Source of the DNA: Candidatus Fibrimonadaceae bacterium
GTDB lineage: Bacteria > Fibrobacterota > Fibrobacteria > Fibrobacterales > Fibrobacteraceae
Reading direction: 5' to 3'
DNA: 64,000 bases
Assembly: GCA_031281155.1 (NCBI GenBank)
Contig: JAITFT010000084.1
Coordinates: forward strand, 1 to 64,000
The notes under the pieces are model-generated. The model did not search any database, was not told where the DNA came from, and saw only the letters and a program-made list of their open reading frames with translations. Made by a program: the position numbers and the translations under genes. Below, piece after piece: positions 841-59,859 of the stretch; within the stretch, counting starts at the first letter, position 1; each line of letters starts with the position of its first letter.

Positions 841-862
841 GAATGTAGAAAATTCTACATTC
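841..862. promoter_or_regulatory. Divergent back-to-back promoter pair (ftsH / lipoprotein)
   Basis: Inverted repeat with 10-bp perfect arms and a 2-bp centre. Each arm ends in a TACATT hexamer pointing outward: rightward at 856-861, 6 nt before the GTG at 868; leftward as the complement of 842-847, 8 nt before the ftsH ATG. I infer two overlapping -10 elements that cannot be used simultaneously. No -35 consensus is evident. Confidence 0.65.
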
Positions 863-867
863 TTGGC

Positions 868-1872
868 GTGAAATTATTTTCTTTAATTGCTCTTTTGTTG
901 GCTGGTTGCGTGTCTAATACGGCGAAGCAGCCAATTTCTTTGGCAGAAGCTTTGGATTCTGTTGAATGCAAAAGCGGTGAGTTTCGCGGCGCGGGAATTG
1001 GAGGTAGCGAGAACGAGGCGTTGAGTGTTGCACGTTCTGCGCTTGCGAAGCAGGTGCATTCATCAGTGAAAGTATCAGACGAATACCGCCTGAGTCGGAG
1101 TGTTTCTGGCGGAAAAGAGGATTTGAGTTCCGAATCTAAATCTGAACTTGTGGTGGAAGCTGCTTTGCTGAATGCACACGATGCACGTGTGCAGCATACG
1201 CAACGGAGAGCAAATGAAACAGGCATTGTTGTTTGCATGAGCCGCACAGATGCCGCTAAGGGCTTTACGGAACGGCAACGCTTTATAACGGACTCTCTGA
1301 AAATAGTTTCTGCGATTGTTAGCACCGAACATCCTAAGCGCAAAAATGAAGCTTGGCATAAAACACAAACGCTTTGGTATGAGTTTATGAGAATTCAAGA
1401 TCTGCTGGAAGGCTGGGGCGTTGCGAAAACAGATTTTTTTGTTTCTGCAAATGAAGTTTATGCTAAAACCGAGAACTATTATAAAAACTATTGCAAAAAT
1501 CAGAAAACCTATTGGGAGGCTCCTGCAAGCGAATGCGCTAATATTGTTTTCGCAGGGTTGTTTGAAAGGATAAAAATCACAAAAGAAGATGCCGAGTGCC
1601 AAAACGGGCTGAGACTGCGTTTCTCCTGTAACGATAGATGCAGGTCATCTTCTTTTGGAGTGGAATGTTTACTTGAGCCATCTTTGGCAATTGAATCTTG
1701 CAACGGCGCGCACTACTCTTTGCTAAAAGCCAAGGGGCCTACGACAGGCAACGATATGCACAGCGAAATCAAGGCTAAGGAAAATTTAATGCGGAATTTG
1801 CCCAAAGCGAGTTTTTTTAATGAATGGGAAAAGGAAATTAGGGAATGGGTGCCACAGTGCGTGGTGCAGTAG
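868..1872 (+). CDS. Predicted lipoprotein, LPP20-like N-terminal region
   Basis: 334 residues with a GTG start. The N-terminus is a lipoprotein signal (short basic start, hydrophobic run, lipobox LLAGC near residues 10-14), so it is probably anchored to a membrane facing the periplasm. Residues about 40-75 contain a GxGxGxSExEAxxxARxxLAKQ pattern resembling LPP20-type lipoproteins, where a repeatedly seen alanine-rich helix follows a glycine-rich strand. The rest is Cys-containing and unrecognised. The GTG lies 6 nt after a TACATT hexamer with no Shine-Dalgarno, so initiation is probably leaderless. It is transcribed divergently from ftsH; no function can be assigned from context. Confidence 0.8.
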
Positions 1873-1900
1873 TTCAAAAAAAATAACGATTAATGATAAT

Positions 1901-1910
1901 TTTCTATATT
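1901..1910 (+). promoter_or_regulatory. Promoter of tRNA-Leu and downstream genes
   Basis: TTTCTATATT, with the TATATT hexamer at 1905-1910, ends 20 nt before the first base of the tRNA. Since a tRNA has no start codon, this is the best independent evidence in the window that the TTTCTAyATT motif is a promoter rather than a translation signal. Confidence 0.65.
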
Positions 1911-1930
1911 ACCGCACACACATCAAAAAT

Positions 1931-2014
1931 GCCGAAGTGGTGAAATTGGTAGACGCGCTGGACTCAAAATCCAGTAGAGGCAACTCTGTGGGGGTTCGAT
2001 TCCCCCCTTCGGCA
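1931..2014 (+). tRNA. tRNA-Leu (anticodon CAA)
   Basis: A class II tRNA with acceptor stem GCCGAAG/CTTCGGC, a D-arm, an anticodon stem CTGGA/TCCAG around the loop CTCAAAA (anticodon CAA at 1965-1967), a long variable arm and a T-arm with GTTCGATTC. The discriminator base is A and CCA is not encoded, so a CCA-adding enzyme would be required. The next protein gene starts only 27 nt downstream with no promoter between them, suggesting a joint tRNA-mRNA transcript. Confidence 0.95.
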
Positions 2015-2041
2015 CTAAAGTCTTCTATAGAGAGGTATCTT

Positions 2042-2671
2042 ATGAAATTTTTAGTCCCGGCTCTTTTACTCTGCGCAACGCTCGCCTTTGCCCAATTCGA
2101 CTTCGATGATGATGAATGGGCAAATTTTGACTTTCGCCATGCAGGTCTAACTCAAATCGAATTCCAAAACGTTAAGGAATCCGGAATGGGCAAAGAAAAG
2201 CTTATGTACCTGCTAGAGATAGGTATCCGCCCATCCACTTACCTGCAAGAGCCCTGGAAAAATCTCGGCGTATCTGAAAGCGAATGGCTCTCTCAGCGCG
2301 AAAAGGGAATGGAAGACGCCGACATAGATCGCACATATAGAAACTACGGCGGCGACCAAAGCGCAGCTTATTTATCTTTCTTGATACCATCGTACTACCA
2401 CTGGAAAACGGGTGACATGGCTATGGCTATGGCAATAGATATCTTGTGGCTTACATCCGTAGGCGTAACCGTGTTTTTATGGAATAAAGGAAGCACCGAC
2501 AACCAATGGGTTTACGGAGCTGGGGCAATAGGCCTTGTTCATATATTCTCCGGAGCAACAGCCCTGCTCTCAACTCAATGGGATAACAATCCCGATGCCA
2601 GAAACTTCTCGTGGGGCATTTTGCCAACGGGCAAAAATTCCGTTGCCGCTGCCGCCGCCTTTAGGTTCTAA
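2042..2671 (+). CDS. Exported membrane protein of unknown function
   Basis: 209 residues. The ATG at 2042 is chosen because it starts a clear signal peptide (hydrophobic core followed by AFAQ) and has AGAGG upstream; the reading frame is open further 5' but that stretch runs through the tRNA. The mature protein has an acidic start (FDFDDDEW), a charged middle, and two hydrophobic segments near residues 128-145 and 155-172. The C-terminus ends in an alanine run and FRF, as in small outer-membrane or envelope proteins. No family recognised. It shares a transcript with tRNA-Leu and is followed directly by the oxidoreductase gene. Confidence 0.8.
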   Translation: MKFLVPALLLCATLAFAQFDFDDDEWANFDFRHAGLTQIEFQNVKESGMGKEKLMYLLEIGIRPSTYLQEPWKNLGVSESEWLSQREKGMEDADIDRTYRNYGGDQSAAYLSFLIPSYYHWKTGDMAMAMAIDILWLTSVGVTVFLWNKGSTDNQWVYGAGAIGLVHIFSGATALLSTQWDNNPDARNFSWGILPTGKNSVAAAAAFRF

Positions 2672-3625: not shown

Positions 3626-3626
3626 A

Positions 3627-4052
3627 TCAAGAAAAATCTCTTATAATACACCACCAAGCGATAAAGCCAAATGCTGAAATTCCTGCAAATATGGCAACTA
3701 TGCAAAACCAAACGATGTCAAAATTCAAATTAAAACTCGGCAGACTCCACCCGCTTTCTTTTATAACAGCTTCTGCTGGCCTATGTTTTATAACGGGAGG
3801 CTTATAATTTTGCGGCTTTTTCTTTTCATCTTTATATGGATCTATCCAATCATATAATTCATAGGTCTCGCCATTTTCAAAGCCAAAGGGAATGACGTTT
3901 TTGTTAATGTGATTTATAAATGTTATTTTGCTACCAATTGACTCCTGCAATTCAATCAAATACTTGGATATAGCTTCCACGTATTGCCTGTTTGCATCTG
4001 AACCACCCACTCTGCTAATAAGCGTTCGTTTAATAAACTCCTGACTCACCAT
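3627..4052 (-). CDS. Small protein with a C-terminal membrane anchor
   Basis: 141 residues, not recognised. Residues 1-70 look like a small soluble domain, residues 70-100 are a lysine/proline-rich linker (KDEKKKPQNYKPP), and residues about 112-137 form one hydrophobic membrane segment rich in Trp and Phe, giving a tail-anchored layout. The start is ATG GTG: the ATG lies 4 nt after the -10-like TATATT and the GTG 7 nt after it, so the GTG may be the real leaderless start. It converges with the oxidoreductase gene, 1 nt apart. Confidence 0.7.
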   Translation of the reverse strand: MVSQEFIKRTLISRVGGSDANRQYVEAISKYLIELQESIGSKITFINHINKNVIPFGFENGETYELYDWIDPYKDEKKKPQNYKPPVIKHRPAEAVIKESGWSLPSFNLNFDIVWFCIVAIFAGISAFGFIAWWCIIRDFS

Positions 4053-4056
4053 TGGG

Positions 4057-4076
4057 AATATAGAAATTTCTATATT
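4057..4076. promoter_or_regulatory. Divergent back-to-back promoter pair
   Basis: AATATA-GAAATTTC-TATATT, a perfect 20-bp palindrome. The leftward hexamer serves the small membrane protein; the rightward hexamer at 4071-4076 serves the FISUMP lipoprotein through a short leader. Confidence 0.65.
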
Positions 4077-4093
4077 AGCAACAGGAAGGTAAT

Positions 4094-4123
4094 ATGGCGT
4101 TTAACATTGGAGTTTATTTGTGA
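4094..4123 (+). CDS. Possible 9-residue leader peptide
   Basis: ATG at 4094 preceded by GGAAGG (4084-4089) opens a frame of nine codons (MAFNIGVYL) that stops in TGA at 4121-4123, overlapping the GTG start of the FISUMP gene at 4120. This has the layout of a translationally coupled leader ORF. It could equally be chance, with the GGAAGG serving nothing. Confidence 0.35.
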   Translation: MAFNIGVYL

Positions 4124-6731: not shown

Positions 6732-8672
6732 TTAATCCGAAATTTTGATTTTCATGCCCGGAAAAATTTTCTTATCCAAACCAGGATTCCAATCTAATAG
6801 CTGCTGAACGGTTACATCGTGGGCTCTAGCTATATCCCACAGGTTATCGCCAGATTTCACAATGTAACTTGCACCGCTTATTGCTTTATTTGCGTGGGTT
6901 TGAGTTTGGGTGTCTCTTTGTTGAGTGTTCGTGCTTTGAGCTCTTTTAGGATCTTGCAAAAAAAGCTGTTGACCTGCTCTAATTCTGTTGTCTTCCAGAT
7001 TATTCCAGCTCTTTAAATTTTGCATTGAAACGCCGAACCTTCTGGAAATAGTGCCGAGATTATCACCGTTTTTAACAAGGTAAGTGCGCACATTGCTTTC
7101 GGAACGCGTAGTTTGCGTATTTTCGTTACGCGTACCTGTTGAGGCTTGCCTTTGATTGCCCGGAGGGCTGGCTCCATGAGGCATGGGGATAATTAAAACT
7201 TGCCCAACTCTGAGCCTTGTGTTTTGCAAATTATTCGCTGATTGAATATCGGCGGCTTTTAAACCAAAAACTCTTGCTATGCTGCCAAGGTTATCGCCTT
7301 TTTGCACTTTGTATTGCTGCCAGCGTACCAATTGCGTTTTATCCATTTTTTCGTAAGCGGCAAGAAATTTTTCTCTAGTACCTTGCGGAATATTCATTGT
7401 GTATTGCTTTAGGTTTGGCGGTGTGCTCCAGCGAGTTAGCTCTGGGTTTAAATCGCGCATGGTATTAACGCTTGCACCAATTGCACTGCCAATTTTATCT
7501 AGAGGAATTCCATCTTTAACGGTTACTGTATCAAAAGGAAGAACGCTTCGTTTTTCAACTGTGAATGAATAACGCTCAGGGAAATGCCCTATGATTGTTG
7601 CGGCTAAAATTCTCGGTACGTAGAGCATTGTTTCTTTGGGCAATTGCAAATCCCAATAGGAAACTTTTTTCAATGTGGAGTCTGCAGCCTTTGCTTCTCT
7701 TACAAGCCTGCGAATTCTGCCTTCTCCGCAGTTATAAGCTGCCATTGCCAGGTACCAATCGTCAAATTCTCTGTATAAATCAGAAAGGTATCTCAGAGCG
7801 GCATCGGTGGCGGCTTCGGGATTATAGCGCATATCCCGCCAGAAATCTATCGACAAGCCGTAGCGTTTGCCTGTTGCAGGAATAAACTGCCACACACCTG
7901 CTGCCTTAGCTTTGCTGTAAGCACGCGGTTTAAAACCGCTTTCCACAAGAGCTAGATATACAAGGTCTTCGGGCATATTGCGTTTGCGAAGTTTTGCGAA
8001 GATCATGCTATCTAGCGTGGTTTTTCTAGAAAGCGAGCTTTCCATAAAAGACCTAGCGTTCACGGTAAGAAAGCGAATTTCTCGCATAACGCGATCGTTG
8101 ATTTCAATAGGAAGTGAAAACCTGGCTAAATTCATTGTATCTAAAAAATTCTCAATAACTTTTTTTTCCACGCTATCTAGCGGAGCTTCTTCAAATGAAT
8201 CAAAGCCTTCGTAGTCGCTTAGTATTGAAAAAACGTGTTCTGCTTCTGCCAAATTAATGAGCATTGGATATACTCTCTCCAATGCTGAAATAATGCGAGC
8301 AGGCATTGTGGCAAAATACTCGGCGCTATCCGGGCTTGCCAGAGAATCTGCCTGTTGCTCCGAATGAACTTCGCCCAAAGCCATATCGAAATAGTACATG
8401 GCAGCTAAAGGATCGCCAGTCTCTAGAGCCTGCACTCCAGACTTGAACTCTGCCCAAGATATTTTGCCAGCCGCACCCTTAGGCTCATTTAAGTCTATTC
8501 GCGCTGGCAAGCGCTTTACAGGTGCTTCGGGCACCTGCACAGAAGGAGCTGGCTCCTCTGGCTCTGCAAGTACAATAAGTTCGTTTCCTTTGTTTGTTGC
8601 CGAGCAAGCAACGAATAGAGGAAACATTAACGAAAGTATTTTTAATCTTTTAATCATCATCCTCTTCTTCAT
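6732..8672 (-). CDS. mltD: Membrane-bound lytic transglycosylase D-like lipoprotein with three LysM domains
   Basis: 646 residues. A lipoprotein signal ends in FVACS near residues 20-24. A central SLT domain (about 225-400) shows the catalytic glutamate in ALVESGF (E244), AAGVWQFIPATGKRYGL and MAAYNCGEGRI. Three LysM domains follow, starting near 460, 535 and 602, each with (V/K)xGDNL. It would cleave the glycan strands of murein in the periplasm, LysM modules giving wall binding. The start overlaps the end of the small acidic gene by 23 nt; ATGs four or five codons further in are alternatives, since the frame begins MKKRMMIK. Confidence 0.93.
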   Translation of the reverse strand: MKKRMMIKRLKILSLMFPLFVACSATNKGNELIVLAEPEEPAPSVQVPEAPVKRLPARIDLNEPKGAAGKISWAEFKSGVQALETGDPLAAMYYFDMALGEVHSEQQADSLASPDSAEYFATMPARIISALERVYPMLINLAEAEHVFSILSDYEGFDSFEEAPLDSVEKKVIENFLDTMNLARFSLPIEINDRVMREIRFLTVNARSFMESSLSRKTTLDSMIFAKLRKRNMPEDLVYLALVESGFKPRAYSKAKAAGVWQFIPATGKRYGLSIDFWRDMRYNPEAATDAALRYLSDLYREFDDWYLAMAAYNCGEGRIRRLVREAKAADSTLKKVSYWDLQLPKETMLYVPRILAATIIGHFPERYSFTVEKRSVLPFDTVTVKDGIPLDKIGSAIGASVNTMRDLNPELTRWSTPPNLKQYTMNIPQGTREKFLAAYEKMDKTQLVRWQQYKVQKGDNLGSIARVFGLKAADIQSANNLQNTRLRVGQVLIIPMPHGASPPGNQRQASTGTRNENTQTTRSESNVRTYLVKNGDNLGTISRRFGVSMQNLKSWNNLEDNRIRAGQQLFLQDPKRAQSTNTQQRDTQTQTHANKAISGASYIVKSGDNLWDIARAHDVTVQQLLDWNPGLDKKIFPGMKIKISD

Positions 8673-11724: not shown

Positions 11725-11734
11725 TTTCTACTTT
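11725..11734 (+). promoter_or_regulatory. Promoter of trpS
   Basis: TTTCTACTTT with hexamer TACTTT at 11729-11734, exactly 6 nt before the trpS ATG; no Shine-Dalgarno, so leaderless. Confidence 0.55.
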
Positions 11735-14398: not shown

Positions 14399-15311
14399 AC
14401 CTAAGCGCCATGTTTTGAATAGCGTGCTCTGCCGTAAACTTTTTCGCAAGCATTGCCTGCAAAAGAAAATGCACATTGTGCATATGGTGCCCCTGCTTTA
14501 TTTTTAGCAAGTAAATAGCCAAGCCCTCTAAAAAAAACGCCACTGTGTTTATAGACTTATCTAAGCTTTGAGCGCATAAAATTGCCGAAGAAACATCGCC
14601 CTTTAAAGCGTAGTTTGCGTATTCAGAGATTTTTTCTTTAAGCGAGGAATAATCGGAATCTATGGCAAACATTGCTTTGCCCGCTGAACCGGCAGCAAAA
14701 TCCAAAATATCATCTGATGCAGAAGAATATCCATAAGTTGCCAGAACTTTCGCAAGCTCTTCGTTGCTTAAAAAAGGAACAGAAAAACATGTTGAGCGAG
14801 AGCGCACGGTTGGCAAAAGAGAATACCTTGAATTTGCCGTTAATATAAAATAGGTATTTGGCGGAACTTCCTCAAATGTTTTTAAAAGTTTATTCGCCGC
14901 TTCTTCATTCATTAAATCTGTATTCGTTATAATCACAGCACGGTTCCCGCCGGCTTTTAGCGTGAAATTCTGGAGCAGATGCAACACCATTCCAACAGAT
15001 ATAATTGCAGATTCCGTGATATACCCAATGTGAAACGGGTTTTGTATAAATTTTTGCGATAACTCGGTTACTTTAGAATCTATTTTCGCAGGAGTGTCTC
15101 TGTCTTCGGCTTTGCCATCTATGGGGGTGAGCCAAATAACAAGCTCGGAGCTATGCTCGCAGAGCATCTTTGCCAACTCCGTAGCGAGAAGTTTTTTGCC
15201 AATGCCAGCTGGCCCATCTAAAAGCAACATTTGCGGAAAACGCCCTTGCTCAAAAGCGTTCTTCAGGGCACCCCAAACCGGCATCATCTGCGCAGGCATA
15301 TTAAATCCCAT
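14382..15311 (-). CDS. holB: DNA polymerase III delta-prime subunit-like clamp-loader ATPase
   Basis: 309 residues. Walker A is GPAGIGKK near residues 34-41; conserved clamp-loader segments are NEEAANKLLKTFEEVPPNTYFIL (sensor region) and LLPTVRSRSTCFSVPF (a variant of the SRC motif, with S in place of C). Delta-prime loads the sliding clamp as part of the gamma complex. The zinc-binding cysteines of many bacterial DnaX/HolB proteins are not obvious here. It overlaps the end of tatD by 11 nt, a familiar holB-tatD pairing, and its 3' end lies in the 21-bp repeat. Confidence 0.88.
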   Translation of the reverse strand: MGFNMPAQMMPVWGALKNAFEQGRFPQMLLLDGPAGIGKKLLATELAKMLCEHSSELVIWLTPIDGKAEDRDTPAKIDSKVTELSQKFIQNPFHIGYITESAIISVGMVLHLLQNFTLKAGGNRAVIITNTDLMNEEAANKLLKTFEEVPPNTYFILTANSRYSLLPTVRSRSTCFSVPFLSNEELAKVLATYGYSSASDDILDFAAGSAGKAMFAIDSDYSSLKEKISEYANYALKGDVSSAILCAQSLDKSINTVAFFLEGLAIYLLKIKQGHHMHNVHFLLQAMLAKKFTAEHAIQNMALRLAQPH

Positions 15312-16089
15312 ACATCCTCCCTGTATTTTCCCTGCATATTTTTAGCAATTCATCTAAAGAAACTTTTTTAATATCAGCTAAAACCTGCGCTGTGTTGGGA
15401 ATCATTGCCGGTGTGCAAATTTTGCCTCTAAAAGGCACGGGAGCAAGGTAGGGAGCATCGGTTTCCAAAAGCATTCTATTTAGAGGAATAAGGCTCGCCG
15501 CTTCTTTTATTGTAACGGTTTTTTCAAAAGTTAAAGCACCGGTAATTCCAAAAAAATAATTCCCCTTCAGCGACAAAACTTTTTCTGCGAAATCCAGCGT
15601 ACCTGTGTAGCAATGGAGATGCACATTTAAATTTTCTTTGTCTATTTTTTGCAAAATATTAAAAGCGTCATTTTCTGCCTCACGCAAATGAAACACAAAA
15701 TTTTTCCCTAATTCTAAACCAATTTCCACTTGCCTTAAAAAAACGGATTTTTGCAAATCGGCGTTATCGCTGTAATAATGATAATCAAGCCCTATTTCTC
15801 CCAAAGCAACAACATTGGGCAGTTTCAAGCACTCAAGCAAAGCTGCCTCGGCTTCTTTGCAATAGGTTTTTGCATTCAAGGGATGCACCCCAAAAGCACC
15901 AAAAATTTGAACTCCATTTATACTTTTTCTCTTTAAAAAATCTTTCCCGAAAGAAAAATCTTTAGGATCGCAGGCAATATGAACAATAGCCTCCGGAAGA
16001 GGATTCATCTGCTCAAACAAAGCCTCTATTGTGCCATCTGTTTTTTCTAGAATTGTATCTATATGGCAATGCGTATCTATGAAATTCAT
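15301..16089 (-). CDS. tatD: TatD-family metal-dependent hydrolase
   Basis: 262 residues, standard length. Metal ligands and signatures are visible in order: FIDTHCHID at the N-terminus, GEIGLDYHYY near residue 97, FHLREAENDAF, HLHCYTG and LETDAPYLAP near 210. TatD-family enzymes are 3'-5' DNA exonucleases or related hydrolases. The ATG lies 7 nt after TATATT with no Shine-Dalgarno (CCACCAA between), so leaderless. It heads a tatD-holB operon. Confidence 0.94.
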   Translation of the reverse strand: MNFIDTHCHIDTILEKTDGTIEALFEQMNPLPEAIVHIACDPKDFSFGKDFLKRKSINGVQIFGAFGVHPLNAKTYCKEAEAALLECLKLPNVVALGEIGLDYHYYSDNADLQKSVFLRQVEIGLELGKNFVFHLREAENDAFNILQKIDKENLNVHLHCYTGTLDFAEKVLSLKGNYFFGITGALTFEKTVTIKEAASLIPLNRMLLETDAPYLAPVPFRGKICTPAMIPNTAQVLADIKKVSLDELLKICRENTGRMYGI

Positions 16090-16096: not shown

Positions 16097-16132
16097 AATA
16101 TAGTAATTTACCGTAATAAAAAATTCTATTTT
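16097..16132. promoter_or_regulatory. Divergent promoter region tatD / patatin-like gene
   Basis: The leftward TATATT (complement of 16097-16102) is 7 nt from the tatD ATG; the rightward TATTTT (16127-16132, in TTCTATTTTA) is 8 nt from the ATG at 16141. Here the two hexamers are 24 bp apart rather than fused in a palindrome. Confidence 0.55.
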
Positions 16133-16140: not shown

Positions 16141-16977
16141 ATGAAGTTACATTACGGCTTGGTTCTAGAGGGCGGTGGTCTGAGAGGCTTGTACACCTCT
16201 GGCGTTATAGATTTATTTTTGGAAAAAGAAATAGAATTTCCTTTTGTAATTGGAGTCTCTGCGGGAGCAGGTTATGGCTGTTCTTTTGTTTCCAAACAAT
16301 ATGGCAGAAATTTAAGGGTTATGAGAGAGTTTAGAAAAGACCCTCGCTACCTGTCTTTAAAGAGTTATATAAAAACAGGAAATTATTTTGGCTTGGATTT
16401 CATATACGATGAAATTCCAAAACACATTCCGTTTGATACGAAAGCTTTTTTAGAATCGCAAACTCGCTTTATAACGGTCTGTTCCAATGTAGAAACCGGC
16501 GAGGCTGAATATTTCGATAAAGAAGAAGATATTTTGCAAGCCTTAAAAGCTTCTTCTGCCGTTCCTTTTATGAGTAGAATTATAGAATACAAAGGCAAAA
16601 AACTTTTAGATGGAGGAATAACAGATGCCATTCCTCTTAAAAAATCCATAGAACTTGGTTTTTCGAAAAATGTAGTTATTCTCACGCACCCAGAAGGTTT
16701 TCGCAGAAAAAACAGGTTTCACCCATCTTGGTTTTTTTATCGCAAATATCCAAAATTTATTAAGGCTATAAACTCTTATGTTGCCAGATACAATGAAAGC
16801 TTGGAATTCGTTGAAGAAGAAGCAAAAAAAGGAAACGTGCTTCTCATTCGTCCAAGCGAAAATTTAAAAGTTAAAAGAACAGAAAGCGACATTTCAAAAT
16901 TGGAACGTCTGTATGAGCTTGGGAAAAAAGATGCCGCCGCATTTTCTATATTTCAAAACGATGTTCCGCATTGCTAA
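16141..16977 (+). CDS. Patatin-like phospholipase (RssA/YjjU-type)
   Basis: 278 residues, cytoplasmic by absence of a signal peptide. The oxyanion-hole motif LEGGGLRGLYTSG lies at 9-21, the nucleophile elbow GVSAGA at about 38-43 and the catalytic DGG (LLDGGITDAIPL) near 159. The Ser-Asp dyad indicates a lipid acyl hydrolase. C-terminal residues are basic and may contact membrane. ATG is 8 nt after a TATTTT hexamer. Its last 17 nt overlap the start of the PorU-like gene, whose promoter lies inside this gene. Confidence 0.92.
   Translation: MKLHYGLVLEGGGLRGLYTSGVIDLFLEKEIEFPFVIGVSAGAGYGCSFVSKQYGRNLRVMREFRKDPRYLSLKSYIKTGNYFGLDFIYDEIPKHIPFDTKAFLESQTRFITVCSNVETGEAEYFDKEEDILQALKASSAVPFMSRIIEYKGKKLLDGGITDAIPLKKSIELGFSKNVVILTHPEGFRRKNRFHPSWFFYRKYPKFIKAINSYVARYNESLEFVEEEAKKGNVLLIRPSENLKVKRTESDISKLERLYELGKKDAAAFSIFQNDVPHC
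16943..16952 (+). promoter_or_regulatory. Internal promoter for the PorU-like gene
   Basis: TTTCTATATT, with TATATT at 16947-16952, within the last codons of the patatin-like gene and 8 nt before the ATG at 16961. It would give a leaderless mRNA independent of the upstream gene. Confidence 0.55.
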
Positions 16978-25096: not shown

Positions 25097-25116
25097 AATT
25101 TAGAAATTTCTACATT
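25097..25116. promoter_or_regulatory. Divergent back-to-back promoter pair
   Basis: AATTTA-GAAATTTC-TACATT. The leftward hexamer is 7 nt from the barrel-protein ATG; the rightward hexamer is 25 nt from the M48 protease ATG. Confidence 0.6.
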
Positions 25117-27577: not shown

Positions 27578-27583
27578 AATATA
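27578..27583 (-). promoter_or_regulatory. -10-like element of the biotinyl-domain operon
   Basis: TATATT preceded by TTTC on the minus strand, ending 7 nt before the ATG at 27570. Confidence 0.55.
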
Positions 27584-27602
27584 GAAAAATAATTTCTTAA
27601 TA

Positions 27603-28055
27603 TTACGAAGATAGATTGGTGCGCATTTTAAACCTTCGCACAATAACAATTAATAAAAATGTAAGAGTTGCCGCTGTTGCGCCTATGAAGTCTGAGACCA
27701 CATCGTGTAAGTTGCTACCGGAAATTTTTATTTTTTGCAAATCTTTAGAAAAACAAATAAAGCCTTCGCAGGAGCGACCGGAAACAAATGACTGGTGAAA
27801 CTCATCAAGAATTCCGAAAACCGTGCAAAAAATAATAATCGACAAACACCAAAAAACCGGCTTTTCAAGCCATTTCTTGTATGGAATCCATAAACAAAAG
27901 GACATTCCCAAAGCAAAATAAGCTATAATATGCTTTGCTCTGCTGCTAAGTTTAACCGAATTTAAAAACAAGTCATCTCCAGGCAAGGAAGAGAGATAGC
28001 AAATCCCCACCATAACCAGAATAGCTGGAATTTTTCTTAAAATATTTTTATTCAT
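27603..28055 (-). CDS. VanZ-family membrane protein
   Basis: 150 residues with four predicted membrane segments (about 7-22, 43-58, 69-90, 115-138). GILDEFHQSFVSGRS and SDFIGATAATL are the VanZ-family signature. The family is linked to teicoplanin resistance in one case but is otherwise of unknown role in envelope or phosphotransfer. ATG is 8 nt after TATATT. Confidence 0.85.
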   Translation of the reverse strand: MNKNILRKIPAILVMVGICYLSSLPGDDLFLNSVKLSSRAKHIIAYFALGMSFCLWIPYKKWLEKPVFWCLSIIIFCTVFGILDEFHQSFVSGRSCEGFICFSKDLQKIKISGSNLHDVVSDFIGATAATLTFLLIVIVRRFKMRTNLSS

Positions 28056-28145: not shown

Positions 28146-29291
28146 TTGGAAAAAGCAGTGCTGGTAGGAGTGGTTACGCCAAAGGTGCGGGTTTCGCAGG
28201 CGCAGGAATATTTGCAGGAATTGCAGCGTTTGGCGGAAACGGCCGGGGCGGAGGTGGCGGAGGTTTTTCTTCAGCGTGTTCAGGCCTTGAACCCAGCAAC
28301 GCTTATTGGTACAGGCAAAATAGAAGAGGTGAAGCTGGCACTGGAAAATCACGATGCTGGCATGGTGATTTTCGATGAAGACCTAAGCGGTTCCCAAATA
28401 CGCAACTTGGAAAAACGCTTGCCAAAAATTAAAGTGCTAGATAGAACGGGTTTAATTCTAGATATCTTTGCCAAACACGCCCGCACAGCCGAAAGCCGCC
28501 TTATGGTGGAGGTTGCCCAAATGCAGTATGTAATGCCGCGCTTAACGCGTGCCTGGGTGCATCTTTCGCGGCAAGCCAGCGGCGAAGGGCCAGGCATTGG
28601 AATGCGCGGGCCGGGCGAAACGCAGCTTGAAGTAGATCGCCGCTTAATTCGCAAACGCATTCAGGAACTCAAAGCGAAGCTCAAAAAAATAGAACGCGAC
28701 AGAGCGTTGCAAGAAAAGCATCGCGAGAATATTTTTCATGTAGGAGTTGTAGGCTACACAAATGCGGGCAAAAGCACTTTAACCAATCGCTTAACCAAAG
28801 CGGGTCTTTATGTAGAAGACAAACTCTTTGCCACCCTAGACAGCACAACTCGCAAATTTCATCTCGCTGAGGGCCAAAACATTATACTGAGCGACACCGT
28901 TGGTTTTATACGCAAACTACCTCACCATTTGGTTGAAACCTTTAAAAGCACGCTCGGAGTGGCTACCAACGCCGATTGCATTCTCGAAATTATAGACTCA
29001 GCAGCAAGCGACTACAAAGAACATATTGAAGTAACCAACAAAATTCTAAGCGACTTGGTACATTGCTCAGTTCCTCGCTTTCGCGTTTTCAACAAAACCG
29101 ACGTCGCCAATGCCACCCGCATAGAAGAGCTAAGCACCGATTATCCCGATGCCATTCAAATCAGCGCCTTGGAGAACACGGGAATGGAAAAGTTAAAAAA
29201 CCGGCTAATGAAAGAACTCGCCAAATGGACTTTCCACCGCACGCAAAAAGTCGCCGAAGAAAAAATGTCATCGCAGAATTTTCTACCTTAG
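28146..29291 (+). CDS. hflX: GTPase HflX
   Basis: 381 residues from TTG 28146. An ATG 18 codons earlier lies inside the promoter and gives an unlikely leader, while TTG has GAAAGG 6 nt upstream and starts LEKAVLVGV, the usual N-terminus. The N-terminal HflX domain (about 1-185) contains NPATLIGTGKIEEV and the glycine-rich ASGEGPGIGMRGPGETQLE; the G domain has GYTNAGKSTLTNRL, DTVGFIRKLPHHLVETF and FNKTD. HflX splits or rescues stalled 70S ribosomes. The promoter of the following gene overlaps its stop codon. Confidence 0.95.
   Translation: MEKAVLVGVVTPKVRVSQAQEYLQELQRLAETAGAEVAEVFLQRVQALNPATLIGTGKIEEVKLALENHDAGMVIFDEDLSGSQIRNLEKRLPKIKVLDRTGLILDIFAKHARTAESRLMVEVAQMQYVMPRLTRAWVHLSRQASGEGPGIGMRGPGETQLEVDRRLIRKRIQELKAKLKKIERDRALQEKHRENIFHVGVVGYTNAGKSTLTNRLTKAGLYVEDKLFATLDSTTRKFHLAEGQNIILSDTVGFIRKLPHHLVETFKSTLGVATNADCILEIIDSAASDYKEHIEVTNKILSDLVHCSVPRFRVFNKTDVANATRIEELSTDYPDAIQISALENTGMEKLKNRLMKELAKWTFHRTQKVAEEKMSSQNFLP
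29280..29289 (+). promoter_or_regulatory. Promoter of the PRPP-synthetase-like gene
   Basis: TTTCTACCTT lies across the last codons and stop of hflX; TACCTT (29284-29289) ends 7 nt before the ATG at 29297. Confidence 0.5.
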
Positions 29292-35928: not shown

Positions 35929-35950
35929 AATATAGAAAATTTTCTACATT
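35929..35950. promoter_or_regulatory. Divergent back-to-back promoter pair
   Basis: AATATA-GAAAATTTTC-TACATT. The leftward side drives the porin with a leader of about 28 nt and AGGAG; the rightward TACATT (35945-35950) is 6 nt from the uppP ATG, with no Shine-Dalgarno. Confidence 0.65.
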
Positions 35951-35956: not shown

Positions 35957-36748
35957 ATGTTCGAAGCAATAATAATAGGCCTAATACAAGGCATAACGGA
36001 ATTTTTGCCCATTTCTTCCACTGGGCACATGCTAATTGCCCAATATTTTCTAAAAAGCCCACAAAGCGACGCCTTTAATGTTTTAATACAAGTAGGCTCC
36101 ATACTCGCTGCTGTAGCGGTTTTTTGGCGTGATATTTTAAATTTTTTCCTTAAATGGAAAGAATCCGCCCAAAGAGATTACGTATATAAGCTAGGTGCCG
36201 CCTTCTTGCTAACCTGCGCAGGCGGCTTTATCGCAAAGCTAGCGGGCTTAAAATTACCAGAAGACAACATTTTACCGGTTGCACTTGCTCTTATAATAGG
36301 CGGGCTTATAATTATTGGAGTTGAAACAAGGGCTAAAAAAAGGCAGTTGAGCACAAACATAACTTGGGCGATAGTTTTTGCCGTTGCTGCCGGGCAGCTT
36401 ATAGCAGCCATATTCCCAGGCTCTTCACGTTCAGGAATGGCAATTATGGGAGCCTTGCTTGTAGGCTTGGCAAGGCCCGAAGCAGTTAAATTTTCTTTTT
36501 TGGTTGGCATCCCAACCATGTTTGCGGCGGCTGCTTTGGAACTTTTAAAAGCAGTAAAAGTCGAAGGAATACCACCCGATCTATTCACCCCAGAAGCTTT
36601 TGTTGCCTACGCCGTTGCCGCTGTTTCATCGTGGCTGGCCGTGGTATGGTTGTTGAAATTCGTAAGGAGCAGAAGCTTCATTCCTTTTGCATGGTATAGG
36701 CTTGCGTTGGGGGTGGCGTTGCTTGTGATGATTAAAATCTCATCATAA
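35957..36748 (+). CDS. uppP: Undecaprenyl-diphosphatase (BacA/UppP)
   Basis: 263 residues, seven or eight membrane segments. Catalytic motifs are GLIQGITEFLPISSTGH at 9-25 and PGSSRSGMAI near 157-166, both conserved in UppP. It dephosphorylates undecaprenyl pyrophosphate for recycling of the lipid carrier; uppS, which makes the carrier, is at 60659. ATG is 6 nt after TACATT. It overlaps the convergent phosphatase gene by 17 nt. Confidence 0.95.
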   Translation: MFEAIIIGLIQGITEFLPISSTGHMLIAQYFLKSPQSDAFNVLIQVGSILAAVAVFWRDILNFFLKWKESAQRDYVYKLGAAFLLTCAGGFIAKLAGLKLPEDNILPVALALIIGGLIIIGVETRAKKRQLSTNITWAIVFAVAAGQLIAAIFPGSSRSGMAIMGALLVGLARPEAVKFSFLVGIPTMFAAAALELLKAVKVEGIPPDLFTPEAFVAYAVAAVSSWLAVVWLLKFVRSRSFIPFAWYRLALGVALLVMIKISS

Positions 36749-44701: not shown

Positions 44702-44721
44702 AATGTAGAAATTTCTATATT
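44702..44721. promoter_or_regulatory. Divergent back-to-back promoter pair
   Basis: AATGTA-GAAATTTC-TATATT. The leftward hexamer is 7 nt from the PilZ-protein ATG; the rightward hexamer (44716-44721) is 11 nt from the recJ ATG. Confidence 0.65.
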
Positions 44722-48130: not shown

Positions 48131-48136
48131 AATATA
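48131..48136 (-). promoter_or_regulatory. -10-like element of the outer-membrane protein gene
   Basis: TATATT on the minus strand, followed by a 30-nt leader carrying GGAG. Confidence 0.5.
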
Positions 48137-48178
48137 GAAAAATATTTTCGACTTGTCTAGTGTTAATTCTTAAAAATC

Positions 48179-51124
48179 TTAATTTTCGCTAATTTCTTCC
48201 AAACGCACAGAGCCAACCTTGCTTATACCCTTCATTTCCTGGCTTATTCCATAGAGCATATCGCAACCAGCCATGGTTCTTTTATTGTGGGTAATGACTA
48301 CAAACTGGGTTTGGTGGCTAAAACGGCGCAAAAGAGCCAAAAAACGCCCAATATTGGCATCGTCCAAGGGTCCGTCAATTTCGTCTAGTATGCAATAAGG
48401 GGAGGGTTTTACCATATAAAGGGCAAAAAGCAGGGATGTGGCAGTCAAAGCTCGCTCTCCACCGGATAAAGCCCGGACACCGCGCATTTTTTTGCCTGTA
48501 GGCCTAGCGTTTATTTCAATTTCTGCTTCTAGAGGGTCAAGGTCGCTTTGCATGGCGAGGAGAGCTTCGCCCCCGGGCATTAAACTTGCGAATACTTCTT
48601 GGTAATTTCGCTGTATTTTGCGGAAAGTGTCTAAAAAACGGTCACGAGCTACTATATCTAGCCTTTCTATTGCTGTGGATAACGAAGTTTTAGCTTTCGC
48701 CAGATCGTTGAATTGAGCCTCTATTGCCAGCACTCTTTCACGTTCTGCTTCAAAATCTTCTGCAACGGTTGCATTAACTGGACCTATTGTCTTTATTTTT
48801 TCCTGCAAATCACGCATTTCAAAACCGGCATCTCGTTCATCAGTGCTTATGGGTGTGAAGGCTTGTTCCCCAGGCTCCTTTTCCAAATCAAATTCGTATT
48901 CCTGGAATATACGCTCACGCACCCTTTCCAAAGAAGTGCCGGAAGCCTGTATAGCAAGTTCCAATTCGTGCATGCTTCTTTCCTTATCGCGCAGAGAATG
49001 GTTTATTCCTCTAACTTCGCTTCGCCATTCTTCCAAGTCTCCAGACATAACGCTATACTTTTCGCGAGCCGCATCTCTGAGCTTTTCCTTAGCACTCAAA
49101 AGTTCTTGCTGCCTTTCTATTTGAATAGCCTTTTCCTCAAGCTCTTTTTCCAAACTTTCTTTTTTGCTATTTATAGCCTCTAACTCTTCGCTTCGCAAAA
49201 CAAGGACACTGTTAAAATTTTGAATTTTTTCTTTAATAATGCGCAAACGGTTTTCTTTTTCAATAAGCGAACTGAGCAAGCGTTCTTGCTCTCCAAGCTC
49301 GGTGTCTATGCGTTCAAAATCTTGTTCTACCCTATTAAGCTCGCTTGCCGCAGCACTCAACTCCGCATTTGAATCCTTGGAACTTTTTAATTCCTGCAAG
49401 CGATTTTCAAAAACTGAAACGCTTTGCTCCAGCCTTTCTTTTTGCTCTGCAAGCGCATTGCTTTTTACCTTTGCAATTTCCAGTTCCGAAATAGCGGTTC
49501 TTACCTGAGAATCTGCCTGCTGCTTTTCTTCTGCGGCATTTGCTATTAGAATATCTATTTCTTTGCTTCTTTCTTTTGCCGCAGTTATTTGAGAGTTTAT
49601 TAAATCTGCTTTTTTGCGTTCTTCTTCTAGGCTTACCTTTAAAATATTCAATTTATCGCTTGTCGCTGAATTTAGGTAATCAATAAATTCGCAATTTTCT
49701 GTGCAAGACTGCAAGCGGTTAACGCGAGACATGGACTCTATTTTTTGATTTGTCAAAGATTCCAGAGCTTCGCCTAAGTCGGCTTTTTCGTTTGCTAAAA
49801 CGCTTTGCCTTTCTTGCAAAATTTCCGACTCGCCTTTGCTTTCGCCAAGCTTGCTTTCCTTGCTTTTTTTAAGCGATTCCAATTCTTCAATTTGAGAATT
49901 TAAATTTTGAATTTCCTTTGATGCTTGAGATATTCGCTCGCCCAGCATTTCTATTTCTGCATCGGTGCGCTGCCATGCGCCTTTGAGCTTGCTTTCTTCT
50001 TGAACAAAGAGCAGTCTCTTGTTGGAAAGCTCTCTATGGCTTGCGCGCAATTGCTCCACGCGTTCTCTTGTATCTTGCAAAATTGATTCGCTTTCCAAAC
50101 TTTGCAGTTCTTCTTTCAATGCCGAAATGCCGCTCTCGCTTTCGCTGATTTCACGCTCGCAATGTTCTGCGTTTTCTTCCAGTTCCTTGTTTCTGTTTTG
50201 CTGATATATATATGCTTCGTTTAGTTTTGCGACTTCTGTTGAAACAAGGGAGACTTCACGCTCGCTTTCGCGCCAGTCCTCTTCTTCGCTTGTTATTAAA
50301 AGCCGTTTTTCCTCTATTTTGGTTTCCAATTCGGTTAGCCTTGTTTTCAAGGTCTCCAGTTCGGTTCCGCTTTTTGTTTTGGTGGCGGAAAGCGTGTGCA
50401 GCGAGGCTTTGCTTTCTGCGTATTTCCCTATATTGATTGAAACATCAATTTCCTTTAAGCGGTTTTTTAATTTGCGAAGCTCCTGCGCTCGAGTGAGCAT
50501 TCTTTCCTGTTGCCTAAACTGGTTTTTTGCATATTGCAAATCTACAGCTATGCGATCCATGTCTATTTGAACTTTTTCGAGTTGCGATGCGGCTTCTTTT
50601 CTTTGCTTTTTATATTTGCCTACGCCTGCGGCTTCTTCGAAAATCGATCTGCGCTCATCTGCTTTGTCGCTGAGCAGGGCATCTACCATTCGTTGGTCCA
50701 TTTGCGAGTAGGAGTTTGCGCCCATGCCTGTGTCTGCGAAGATGTTTCTTATGTCTGCGAGGCGGCATGCCTGGTTGTTTATTAGGTATTCGGATTCGCC
50801 GTTGTTGAAAAGGCGCCTGGTGATTACTACTTCGGAGTACTCAGAGGGTAGAAGCCCACGGTCGTTTTCAATTACCAAGGAGACCTCTGCCATGCTCATG
50901 GCTGGCCGTTCTTCGGTTCCGGAAAAAATAACGCCCTGTATTTTATCCATTCTCAGTTGCCCTGCGCGCTGCTCGCCCATAACCCAGCGAATGGCATCTA
51001 CTATATTAGACTTGCCACAGCCATTTGGGCCTACTATGGCGGTTAACCCATTGCCTTCAAACTGGATTTCCACTTTTTGCGCAAAGGACTTAAAACCGAA
51101 AATTTTTAGCTTCTGTATTCTCAC
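48179..51124 (-). CDS. smc: Chromosome segregation ATPase SMC, apparently without a hinge domain
   Basis: 981 residues, shorter than the usual 1150-1200. N-terminal head: Walker A GPNGCGKSNIVDAIRWVMGEQ at 32-52. C-terminal head: LSGGERALTATSLLFAL at 886-902 and CILDEIDGPLDDANI at 911-925, and GPVNATVAEDF near 781, which is a bacterial SMC signature. Two coiled-coil arms of about 290 residues each flank the midpoint. There the canonical hinge (about 170 residues) is not visible; instead, about residues 470-495 form a short turn with two cysteines, C474 and C478 (CTENC). GTG start at 51124, 9 nt after TACATT. Alternative: the hinge has diverged beyond recognition. Confidence 0.9.
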   Translation of the reverse strand: MRIQKLKIFGFKSFAQKVEIQFEGNGLTAIVGPNGCGKSNIVDAIRWVMGEQRAGQLRMDKIQGVIFSGTEERPAMSMAEVSLVIENDRGLLPSEYSEVVITRRLFNNGESEYLINNQACRLADIRNIFADTGMGANSYSQMDQRMVDALLSDKADERRSIFEEAAGVGKYKKQRKEAASQLEKVQIDMDRIAVDLQYAKNQFRQQERMLTRAQELRKLKNRLKEIDVSINIGKYAESKASLHTLSATKTKSGTELETLKTRLTELETKIEEKRLLITSEEEDWRESEREVSLVSTEVAKLNEAYIYQQNRNKELEENAEHCEREISESESGISALKEELQSLESESILQDTRERVEQLRASHRELSNKRLLFVQEESKLKGAWQRTDAEIEMLGERISQASKEIQNLNSQIEELESLKKSKESKLGESKGESEILQERQSVLANEKADLGEALESLTNQKIESMSRVNRLQSCTENCEFIDYLNSATSDKLNILKVSLEEERKKADLINSQITAAKERSKEIDILIANAAEEKQQADSQVRTAISELEIAKVKSNALAEQKERLEQSVSVFENRLQELKSSKDSNAELSAAASELNRVEQDFERIDTELGEQERLLSSLIEKENRLRIIKEKIQNFNSVLVLRSEELEAINSKKESLEKELEEKAIQIERQQELLSAKEKLRDAAREKYSVMSGDLEEWRSEVRGINHSLRDKERSMHELELAIQASGTSLERVRERIFQEYEFDLEKEPGEQAFTPISTDERDAGFEMRDLQEKIKTIGPVNATVAEDFEAERERVLAIEAQFNDLAKAKTSLSTAIERLDIVARDRFLDTFRKIQRNYQEVFASLMPGGEALLAMQSDLDPLEAEIEINARPTGKKMRGVRALSGGERALTATSLLFALYMVKPSPYCILDEIDGPLDDANIGRFLALLRRFSHQTQFVVITHNKRTMAGCDMLYGISQEMKGISKVGSVRLEEISEN

Positions 51125-51133: not shown

Positions 51134-51154
51134 AATGTAGAAAAATTCTACATT
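51134..51154. promoter_or_regulatory. Divergent back-to-back promoter pair
   Basis: AATGTA (51134-51139), then GAAAAATTC, then TACATT (51149-51154). The leftward hexamer is 9 nt from the smc GTG and the rightward one 6 nt from the ATG at 51161. Confidence 0.65.
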
Positions 51155-51160: not shown

Positions 51161-51478
51161 ATGCTGTTCAAAAAAATATTATTTGCGTATGGGTTGCTGG
51201 CTTTCAGTGCTTGGGCACAGAATATTAAAGAAGACCAAAAAAAAACAGCAATAGACCTTATAGATTCCGTGCATTGGAGCGGCAAGACCTTAATTATAAG
51301 CAGCAATTCAGTGCTAGACGAAATTTTGCTCTTCAACGCAAGCCTTCACAAAATAGCATCTCATGCCGGGAGCAATACCGAAATTCACTTGGGCTTGCAA
51401 GCCTTGCCCACTGGGGTGTATCTTTTGAAAGTCAGATCTGGCCCTACAAGCACGGCCCGCTTGATTGTTGTGAAATGA
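51161..51478 (+). CDS. Secreted protein consisting mainly of a T9SS-type sorting domain
   Basis: 105 residues. Signal peptide (about 1-19, ending SAWAQ), then a short spacer and, from about residue 40, the pattern of a T9SS type A C-terminal domain: SGKTLIISSNS, EILLFNASLHKI, QALPTGVYLLKVRSG and a terminal RLIVVK. There is no cargo domain. ATG is 6 nt after TACATT with no Shine-Dalgarno. It might be a decoy, a competitor or a remnant of a larger gene, but it is intact and has its own promoter. Confidence 0.75.
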   Translation: MLFKKILFAYGLLAFSAWAQNIKEDQKKTAIDLIDSVHWSGKTLIISSNSVLDEILLFNASLHKIASHAGSNTEIHLGLQALPTGVYLLKVRSGPTSTARLIVVK

Positions 51479-51488: not shown

Positions 51489-51498
51489 TTTCTATATT
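51489..51498 (+). promoter_or_regulatory. Promoter of the flgM-like gene
   Basis: TTTTTCTATATT; TATATT at 51493-51498 with a 29-nt leader and AGAGG before ATG 51528. Confidence 0.55.
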
Positions 51499-54936: not shown

Positions 54937-54942
54937 AAGATA
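54937..54942 (-). promoter_or_regulatory. -10-like element of the diguanylate cyclase gene
   Basis: TATCTT preceded by TTTC on the minus strand, ending 7 nt before the ATG. It sits in the tail of a sorting-domain fragment. Confidence 0.5.
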
Positions 54943-54962
54943 GAAAATTCAGTAGGGGTGTG

Positions 54963-56376: not shown

Positions 56377-56463
56377 GCAATTTTTTTCCAAAAAAACAAG
56401 GGTAAAGATGAAATTTTGTCGTTTCTGCTCCTTTTGTGTGGTTGTTGGGGGATTTGCCGATTT

Positions 56464-57426: not shown

Positions 57427-57430
57427 TTTA

Positions 57431-58219
57431 TTACCTCTTTAGGTTATTTGCTGTTTGTAGCATTTCATCGCTTGTGGTTACGGCTTTTGAGCTTATTTCG
57501 TAGGCGCGTTGAGCTATAATCATGCCAACCATTTCTTCTATCATTTGAACATTTGAGCTTTCTAAAAACTGGTTTCTTAAACGCCCAAGATTTTCTTCGC
57601 CCGGCAAGCCTATTACAGGCGTGCCGCTGGCATCGCTTTGGAGATAAATACCGCCGCCTTCTGAAAGCAATCCTGATGGATTCACAAACCTGGCAAGCTC
57701 TATTTGCCCTAAAACTTCCGATGTGTTTTGCCCCGACCTGTAGCAGGTCACTTCGCCTTCGGCGGTTATGGTTAGGTAAGTTTTATCGTTTGGAATATTT
57801 ACCGGAGGGTCTAATAGATAGCCTTGGCTTGTGGTTAAGTAGCCTTCATCGTTTATTTTAAATGCTCCGTTTCTGGTGTAGCCTATTTCGCCGTTGGGTA
57901 AGCGTACTTGGAAAAAACCGCTGCCTTCAATGGCAACATCGGTATCATTGCCGGTTTGCTCTAAGTTACCTTGCATAAAGGATCGAGTTATGGCCACAAC
58001 GCGGGAACCCAAGCCCACTTCTATGCCAACCGGAGCGCGGTTTCCGTCTTCCATTTCGCCGCCAGGCTTTTGCAGGCTTTGGTAAATTAAGTCTTCAAAT
58101 TCAACTTTCTGCTTTTTAAAACCAATTGTATTTACGTTAGAAAGGTTATTAGCAATGGTATCCACAAAGGTTTGGTTGCCTTTCATGCCGGTGGCCGCAG
58201 TATAAAGAGAACGAATCAT
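57431..58219 (-). CDS. flgG: Flagellar distal rod protein FlgG
   Basis: 262 residues from ATG 58219, the standard length. The N-terminus MIRSLYTAATGMKGNQ, ANNLSNVNTIGFKKQKVEF and the C-terminus VQMIEEMVGMIIAQRAYEI, then SDEMLQTANNLKR match FlgG exactly in layout. The open frame extends further 5' through the GH8 gene end, which is spurious. It sits 29 bp after the GH8 stop; that gap is filled by a sigma-54-type promoter. Forms the distal rod of the flagellar basal body. Confidence 0.96.
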   Translation of the reverse strand: MIRSLYTAATGMKGNQTFVDTIANNLSNVNTIGFKKQKVEFEDLIYQSLQKPGGEMEDGNRAPVGIEVGLGSRVVAITRSFMQGNLEQTGNDTDVAIEGSGFFQVRLPNGEIGYTRNGAFKINDEGYLTTSQGYLLDPPVNIPNDKTYLTITAEGEVTCYRSGQNTSEVLGQIELARFVNPSGLLSEGGGIYLQSDASGTPVIGLPGEENLGRLRNQFLESSNVQMIEEMVGMIIAQRAYEISSKAVTTSDEMLQTANNLKR

Positions 58220-58230
58220 ATACTGCAGAT

Positions 58231-58247
58231 TGCAAAAAGCGTGCCAA
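58231..58247 (-). promoter_or_regulatory. Sigma-54-type promoter of flgG
   Basis: Minus strand TTGGCACG-CTTT-TTGCA, an exact fit to the sigma-54 consensus TGGCACG-N4-TTGCW. With the usual 12-nt offset from the -12 C (58232), transcription would begin at about 58220, next to the ATG at 58219. No enhancer-binding site was identified. Confidence 0.7.
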
Positions 58248-58248
58248 G

Positions 58249-59847
58249 TTAGTGTATGGCTATGCGTTGGGGAGCAAAACCCTGGACATGGACTATATAT
58301 ATGCCTTTTGTTTGGATTTGGATTGATAAGGGAGTGGGGAGTGGGGAGTGGGGAGTGGCTGAGTATATGCGCTTGCCGTTGAGGTTGTACACTTCCACTT
58401 TTGCGTTGGGTGGGAGGTTTTCTAGCGCTATGCTCTTGTTGGTTATGTGTATGCGGGGCTTGTTGGTTGTGGCATGTAGCGTTGGGGTTGGAATGCCGTC
58501 TTTTAAGTCTTCCCATATATTTCTTTGAACGCCAGCCAGCATTGATGCGCCGAACCATGCGAGGAATTGGTCGAAATACGTTTCGTTGCGCAAGGTATCT
58601 TCTGGCACTAATGTAGGCACGCCGCTGATGTTGATTGTTCTTCCGCCTCCGGGAGTTGGGTCTATTGCGTTGCCCCAGTAGTCACCGCCTTCGTAGAAAG
58701 ATATTAGCCGTTCGCTGTATTTTTCGGCTAACTCAACGTTTCCTGTGCCTATTGCCGCTGCCGCCCACATGCCTACAGTTAGGTGGCTATGCTCACGGCG
58801 CGAGCGGACTATGGTTCTGTCTGCTATTCTCTCAATGTCGTTTTCGGGGAGTAAGTTCCCGTTCATCTCAAAAAAATTCGCTGCTGCTGGCCCGCCTAAA
58901 CCTTCCAAAAAGGCGATGGCTTTGTCGAGAAATTCTTTAGCGCGCGGTTCGCCGTACCATAAGTAATCGGTTCCAAGCCGCCAATATACGCGTATGGCAT
59001 CTCTGTATAGCGCATCTCCGGCACGGTAGGCATTGTAGCCCGCCCCGCCAGTGGATGTACCGTTTCTCCTAATCCAGTCGGGAATAAGCCCCCTTGCGGC
59101 TCCGGGCGATCTATTGATTAACGCATAAGAGCTGTCTATGACTCTGTCCCATGTTGCTTTATGATTTGGCTCAAATTCGCCAAAAACGCGATAGAATGCG
59201 GGCGCAAAATAGCCAGGATTTTTTGTGCTGCCTATTTGGCTAGAAGATTGACCCCAAGTACCCGGAAGCAAGAAATGCTGTTCGAGCATTGTAGTTCTGA
59301 TTACCTGCAGTAGGCTGCGAGCGCGCCCTTCGTAGGTTGCGCCTCTCGTGCTTGTAAACGGTTCCCAAATTCCGTTTTTCACCAGTTCATCAGCAAAGAT
59401 AAGCAATAGCGCAATGTCTTGGTCGGCATCGGATGCGGGGCCAGTTCCAATCGTTGCGCCCGTTGAGTTTGTGCGCCAGTTATAGTGGTTTCGTGCGGTT
59501 GCCCACATATGTCTCTCGCCAGCATCCCATACGCTATTGAAGTATTCTTGATCGTTGCTATAAAGGGCCAAAAACATTCCGTAGCTAATCCCTTCGCTAA
59601 CAGCATCTCCAGGCACTTCTGATTTAGGCCTATGCACCATTCCCGTGGTATATGCATCGATATTGCGTTTTTTTACCCCTTCCCACGTTTTAAGCAGTAT
59701 GGTATCGTAAGGCATTGTTCTGTTTAGTGCGGGAACGTAAGGGTCTGCCACTTTCGGCAGTTCAACTGCGGGTGTGTAGGGTAGCAGCAGGGCGAAGGCC
59801 GCCGAGGCGGCAAGGAGGGTAGCAAGTAAGATTGAGAATGGGCGCAT
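58249..59847 (-). CDS. Glycoside hydrolase family 8 with C-terminal sorting-like domain
   Basis: 532 residues. Signal peptide (ATLLAASAAFA), GH8 catalytic domain (about 40-430) with the acid-bearing VSEGISYGMFLALYSND (Glu near residue 84), a motif SDADQDIALLLIFAD with the catalytic-base-type Asp near 138, and later GDYWGNAIDPTPGGG. GH8 enzymes cleave beta-1,4 links in cellulose, xylan or lichenan with inversion. The C-terminal tail (about 460-532; AKVEVYNLNGKRIY and KGIYIVHVQGFAPQ) is a T9SS type A-like sorting domain, interrupted by a Ser/Pro stretch encoded by heptamer repeats. ATG is 6 nt after TATTTT. Confidence 0.9.
   Translation of the reverse strand: MRPFSILLATLLAASAAFALLLPYTPAVELPKVADPYVPALNRTMPYDTILLKTWEGVKKRNIDAYTTGMVHRPKSEVPGDAVSEGISYGMFLALYSNDQEYFNSVWDAGERHMWATARNHYNWRTNSTGATIGTGPASDADQDIALLLIFADELVKNGIWEPFTSTRGATYEGRARSLLQVIRTTMLEQHFLLPGTWGQSSSQIGSTKNPGYFAPAFYRVFGEFEPNHKATWDRVIDSSYALINRSPGAARGLIPDWIRRNGTSTGGAGYNAYRAGDALYRDAIRVYWRLGTDYLWYGEPRAKEFLDKAIAFLEGLGGPAAANFFEMNGNLLPENDIERIADRTIVRSRREHSHLTVGMWAAAAIGTGNVELAEKYSERLISFYEGGDYWGNAIDPTPGGGRTINISGVPTLVPEDTLRNETYFDQFLAWFGASMLAGVQRNIWEDLKDGIPTPTLHATTNKPRIHITNKSIALENLPPNAKVEVYNLNGKRIYSATPHSPLPTPLSIQIQTKGIYIVHVQGFAPQRIAIH
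58331..58358. repeat. Four tandem copies of a 7-bp repeat
   Basis: GGAGTGG four times on the plus strand (CCACTCC on the coding strand), preceded by G. It encodes HSPLPTP in the sorting domain of the GH8 protein. It resembles the heptameric short tandem repeats known from filamentous cyanobacteria. Confidence 0.75.
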
Positions 59848-59853
59848 TTGGGT

Positions 59854-59859
59854 AAAATA
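59854..59859 (-). promoter_or_regulatory. -10-like element of the GH8 gene
   Basis: TATTTT after TTTC on the minus strand, ending 6 nt before the ATG; lies in the gap after the thyA stop. Confidence 0.45.

Follow-up and report, generated by a model that had tools for sequence, protein, structure and literature searches.

The sequence TTTCTAYATT very probably serves as the main -10-type promoter element of this bacterium's genus (we put the probability at about 0.86): about a quarter of the genes would be expressed from it as leaderless messages, others would carry leaders with a Shine-Dalgarno (SD) sequence, and divergent pairs would use two copies placed back-to-back. The window, that is, the whole analysed stretch of 64,000 nucleotides, belongs to an assembly of 2.57 Mb in 219 contigs (92% complete), and contig pieces together with the window made up an own-genome sample of 761 kb. 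Gene starts were placed with a simple caller of our own, which combines a coding score with a start-codon prior and is blind to upstream signals; it overlooked a few short genes, for example 27603-28055 (gap 8 by eye, the gap being the number of nucleotides between the hexamer TAYATT and the start codon). In an annotation-free test with the window excluded, an ATG stood at gap 6-9 for 76 of 145 TTTCTAYATT sites, compared with 12.2 +/- 2.9 in dinucleotide shuffles (maximum 21 in 300). The ATGs at gap 6-9 open reading frames with a median of 282 codons, while six ATGs stood at gaps 0-5, with a median of 11 codons. Exact counting found TTTCTAYATT-N(3-14)-ATG 334 times genome-wide and the reversed pattern 2 times; eleven congeners had 177-338 occurrences each. 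When gaps were counted from the signal-blind starts, the motif occurred 1, 1, 0, 0, 0 and 2 times at gaps 0-5 and 45, 39, 22 and 11 times at gaps 6, 7, 8 and 9, with an abrupt lower limit at gap 6. Counts then tail off over gaps 8-12, drop to ~2 per gap at 13-19 and form a second mode of ~4 per gap at 24-32; the shuffled expectation was 0.28 motifs per gap. Because the position weight matrix (PWM) behind this histogram was trained on gap 5-9 matches of the same sequence, the annotation-free test and the exact-consensus test, which is free of that training, carry more weight. An earlier note on this DNA had called the distribution bimodal, as the histogram bears out, and had named the lack of a genome-wide excess of the TAYATT hexamer at 6-9 nt as a result that would refute its idea; the excess is present, and the idea was not refuted. 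Chance, or an artefact of start choice, might be suspected in an AT-rich genome in which two starts (pilM and PilZ) were first chosen by the pattern. This explanation, to which we give practically no probability, was rejected, since the annotation-free, reversed and shuffled controls refute it; the independent congeners also argue against it, and the genome-wide result does not need the pilM and PilZ starts.

Genes with the motif at gap 5-12 were classed as leaderless-type (133 genes) and those in which 20-60 nt separate the motif from the start codon as leadered (73 genes). The leaderless-type share was about 133/524 genes (25%) in the sampled genome. Among divergent first genes, 62/130 (48%) were leaderless-type and 34/130 were leadered with the same motif, so the initial statement that the element precedes most transcription units was too strong, and leaderless translation as a "major mode" holds for about a quarter of the genes, SD-led initiation being used as well. 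SD tetramers were detected in 2/133 leaderless-type and 55/73 leadered genes (p about 1e-31), confirming the near absence of SD sequences that had been noticed in short-gap genes. The 3' end of 16S rRNA, which holds the anti-SD, was looked for and found only in G016; it is absent from this assembly. Start codons were 129 ATG, 4 GTG and 0 TTG in the leaderless-type class and 342, 28 and 21, respectively, in the other genes; the difference in TTG starts (0/133 vs 21/391) had p = 0.003.

In the leadered promoters, A was found in 15/73 at position +6 after the hexamer, then in 41/73 at +7 and 40/73 at +8. This preference gives an estimate of the start site that is independent of the leaderless genes because it comes from leadered promoters only. 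The A of the ATG is +7 in gap 6 genes and +8 in gap 7 genes. In gap 7-9 genes a purine was present at +7 in 18/72, compared with 48/73 leadered promoters (p = 1e-6), a depletion as would be expected if start sites upstream of the ATG are selected against. In the 761 kb sample, C accounts for 45-55% at positions +2 to +4 of the 6-9 nt spacers of the leaderless class, and G is scarce immediately before the start codon; both biases are stronger than in leadered promoters. We propose that TTTC adjoining the TAYATT hexamer would constitute an extended -10 working without a conserved -35, and that RNA polymerase would begin at a purine located 7-8 nt beyond the hexamer. For about one gene in four, the start codon would coincide with that purine, placing the mRNA 5' end at or 1-3 nt from the ATG or GTG, and these leaderless messages would be translated without SD pairing; the remaining motif-driven genes would be transcribed with SD-containing leaders of roughly 15-50 nt. 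Alternatively, the element could be a promoter from which transcription starts a few nucleotides upstream of the start codon, leaving very short leaders of 2-6 nt. The tail of gaps at 8-12 and the gap of 9-10 kept before smc in congeners would fit such leaders, but the mode at 6-7 puts the A of the ATG at the start site estimated from leadered promoters, and purines are depleted at +7 when the ATG lies further on; we regard this alternative as unlikely. Under the leaderless reading that we prefer, a leader of 1-3 nt is possible for smc and other genes with gaps of at least 9.

No -35 signal was found: at single sites, positions farther upstream than 5 bp from the element never rose above about 0.13 bit, and TTGAC at its best position was present at only 4/160 single sites, unlike a canonical sigma70 promoter with its -35 at about 17 bp. 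An AT preference immediately before the 10-mer was the only other signal around single sites. Back-to-back pairs, AATRTAGAAA-TTTCTAYATT, occurred 36 times in 761 kb with offsets mostly of 10-13, and the opposite arrangement of two sites within 60 bp occurred 2 times. Exact palindromes whose halves lie 0-5 bp apart numbered 4-20 per genome across the genus, against 0 for the reversed pattern. In divergent pairs, a distance of 32-58 bp between the two start codons is frequent. Both the missing -35 partner and the back-to-back pairs are features beyond the earlier note. In compact divergent pairs, the 32-40 bp between the start codons would form a complete two-way promoter, at which polymerase binding to the two elements would probably be mutually exclusive. 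Many divergent pairs show perfect symmetry over 20 bp, and the palindrome AATRTAGAAATTTCTAYATT could instead be the operator of a dimeric regulator controlling hundreds of targets. This is hardly credible, as the distance between the halves ranges from 0 to 5 bp and beyond, paired sites (44) are outnumbered by single ones (91 leaderless and 69 leadered), the sites keep a fixed position with respect to start codons, and they are carried by housekeeping genes such as smc and trpS.

Among 51 window genes, the signal-blind caller yielded 13 leaderless-type and 10 leadered motif genes. The individual gaps first read from the window proved correct for the genes examined: 6 for 868, trpS, uppP and 51161, 7 for tatD, 25089 and 27570, 8 for the patatin-like and ABC-F genes and 9 for smc. 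The palindrome AATGTAGAAAATTCTACATT (842..861) contributes its right half as the predicted -10 of gene 868 (GTG, gap 6). A perfect palindrome, AATATAGAAATTTCTATATT (4057..4076), lies between the divergent genes 3627-4052 (-) and 4120 (+); the left gene has gap 4 to its ATG or 7 to the next codon, a GTG, as originally described, and the right gene is leadered. Putative -10 elements on the + strand include TTTCTACTTT (11725..11734) with gap 6 to the trpS ATG (11741), ATTCTATTTT (16123..16132) with gap 8 to the ATG of a patatin-like gene (16141), a copy at 16943..16952 within the end of the upstream gene with gap 8 to ATG 16961, and TTTCTACCTT (29280..29289) with gap 7 to ATG 29297. On the - strand, TTACTATATT (16097..16106) has gap 7 to the ATG of tatD (15301-16089), TTTCTATATT (27578..27587) and TTTCTATCTT (54937..54946) have gap 7 to ATG 27570 and ATG 54929, respectively, and TTTCTATTTT (59854..59863) has gap 6 to the ATG of a GH8 gene (58249-59847). 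Back-to-back elements occupy 25097..25116 (gap 7 to ATG 25089 on the - strand, gap 25 to ATG 25142 on the + strand), 35929..35950 (AATATAGAAAATTTTCTACATT; gap 6 to the uppP ATG at 35957 on the + strand, gap 28 with an SD sequence to ATG 35900 on the - strand) and 44702..44721 (gap 7 to ATG 44694 on the - strand, gap 11 to ATG 44733 on the + strand). A further back-to-back pair, AATGTAGAAAAATTCTACATT (51134..51154), lies between smc (GTG 51124, -, gap 9) and 51161 (ATG, +, gap 6), whose two start codons are 36 bp apart. No motif was found before the ORF 6732-8672. The small gene 51161-51478 (+), whose promoter region is common with smc, has a weak Por secretion tail domain match, under the curated cut-off. 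The SMC protein itself (981 aa; 48179-51124, -) is without a hinge domain; the SMC of most congeners has 1145-1189 aa and includes, beyond residue ~487, a segment matching Pfam SMC_hinge (as seen in G002), and the segment is also missing from the SMC of G004 and G010 (987-988 aa).

The contrast class is represented in the window by putative leadered promoters, all reading TTTCTATATT, at 51489..51498 (+, gap 29 to ATG 51528), 48131..48140 (-, gap 30 to ATG 48100) and 61957..61966 (-, gap 24 to ATG 61932), each with an SD sequence. Such promoters bear on a further explanation, in which the motif is an AU-rich translational signal, of S1 type or a non-canonical ribosome-binding site (RBS) of FCB bacteria, on a longer leader from another promoter upstream. 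FCB genomes have been described with AT-rich non-SD RBSs (PMC9581028), and the motif is T-rich and near the start codon, but the same motif stands 20-60 nt before SD-led genes. In addition, DNA palindromes lie between start codons 32-40 bp apart, too close for a further promoter to fit in without entering coding DNA, a second motif further upstream was found in only 4/133 leaderless-type genes, and the hard edge at gap 6 fits the geometry from a -10 to +1. We consider a translational signal very improbable.

The boxes are conserved in orthologs. Eleven species of the genus have TTTCTAYATT or a close variant 9-10 nt before the GTG of smc, and G012, which represents a second genus, has a TATCTT box at equal distance. 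The box was found 6-9 nt (mostly 6-7) before the ATG of trpS in 10/12 species and 6 nt before the ATG of uppP in seven species; it was missing from trpS of G005 and G008 and from uppP of G006. The DNA further upstream of the smc, trpS and uppP boxes is unalignable between species. The best named relative of uppP, from "Fibrobacterales bacterium MS499-38" (64% identity), has TAAACT 6 nt before its ATG. The edge at gap 6, the few SD cores, the absence of TTG, the pyrimidines at would-be start sites and the spacing in orthologs all fit the leaderless reading of the earlier note, and together they support the prediction that transcription of the short-gap class would start at or adjoining the start codon.

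To follow the motif across the phylum, TTTCTAYATT-N(6-9)-ATG was counted in 151 genomes against a control. Counts greatly exceeded the control in this genus and in a second one (G141, 132 matches), and amounted to about 7-47 per genome in nearly all other genomes of the family, with G119 at control level; outside the family they were near control. Two genera stand out by extreme motif use, the family as a whole shows it in weaker form, and the rest of the phylum is near background. For G141 (genus g15, 81+51 matches), extreme motif use arose either once for both genera or twice. Comparison DNA came from G012 (same family, 395 kb), G019 (same class, 400 kb) and G014 (same order, 293 kb), the last of which (GC 67%) gave too few called genes for use. 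In G012, roughly 10% of genes (26/270) were leaderless-type with TATATT at gap 6-9, and 21 TAnATT sites stood at gap 6-9 compared with about 2 expected. G019 had a weaker excess, with 21 TAnnTT at gaps 6-9 compared with about 4 expected.

In the genomes of the family that were searched, RpoD_Cterm gave no match above the cut-off. This genome has four sigma-like proteins, and the closest sigma factor is L219 (G000:C77), a protein of 279 aa in which Pfam recognises only regions 2 and 4, somewhat like the short primary sigma of Bacteroidetes. The Bacteroidetes promoter is TAnnTTTG with a -33 TTTG; here the base after TAYATT is mostly A, C or T, the next bases are C-rich and no -33 signal was found. 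Tentatively, the family as a whole might have a promoter system free of the -35, in which sigma reads TTTCTAYATT alone, start codons double as start sites and 32-40 bp make up a two-way leaderless promoter; the short 279 aa sigma factor may underlie it, a possibility that we find plausible without favouring it. Any link between this factor and the absent -35 is no more than a lead.

Leaderless genes preceded by a -10 box are already known, and it is the phylum, the promoter type and the geometry that are new. TA-led leaderless genes have been listed for many bacterial groups, Fibrobacteres not among them (Zheng et al. 2011, PMC3160421), and we found no report of leaderless initiation in Fibrobacterota in the open-access literature. 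As in those TA-led genes, a TAnnnT-like box stands about 10-12 nt before the start codon, above the shuffled control, SD sequences are lacking and SD-led genes coexist; unlike theirs, the present element is a 10-mer that hardly varies and has TTTC instead of TG before the hexamer (PMC3160421). The proportion of ~25% is in the range of Actinobacteria (about 20%) and Deinococcus-Thermus (about 40%) (PMC3160421). In Deinococcus-Thermus, a -10 adjoining the ORF was shown by experiment to drive leaderless mRNA (PMC12340547); the arrangement predicted here is similar, but TTTC is part of the motif, in contrast to TANNNT, and back-to-back pairs are common. The extended -10 leaderless promoters of Lactococcus likewise have a strong extension just upstream of the -10 and probably no -35, although there it is TG and not TTTC (PMC3160421). 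Bidirectional promoters of E. coli and Salmonella are also short symmetrical DNA driving both strands, an activity that is predicted here, but they have one common -10 and start sites usually 18 bp apart (PMC10268837, PMC12825309). Whereas those promoters share a -10 and their divergent start sites are spaced by about 18 bp (7-25 bp), the pairs here consist of two separate back-to-back 10-mers; start codons are mostly at least 32 bp apart, and the predicted start sites, both often start codons, would be about 32-36 bp apart.

The Fibrobacteraceae are fibre degraders of animal guts. If our reading is right, their gene starts could be annotated anew with the promoter as a guide, gene finders that seek SD sequences would misplace some starts in the family, and expression tools for Fibrobacter should adopt leaderless designs. 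The compact pairs would offer a natural two-way promoter for probing polymerase competition. One more phylum would join those with abundant leaderless genes, and the series of two extreme genera, a moderate family and little outside it would provide graded material for studying the spread of leaderless initiation.
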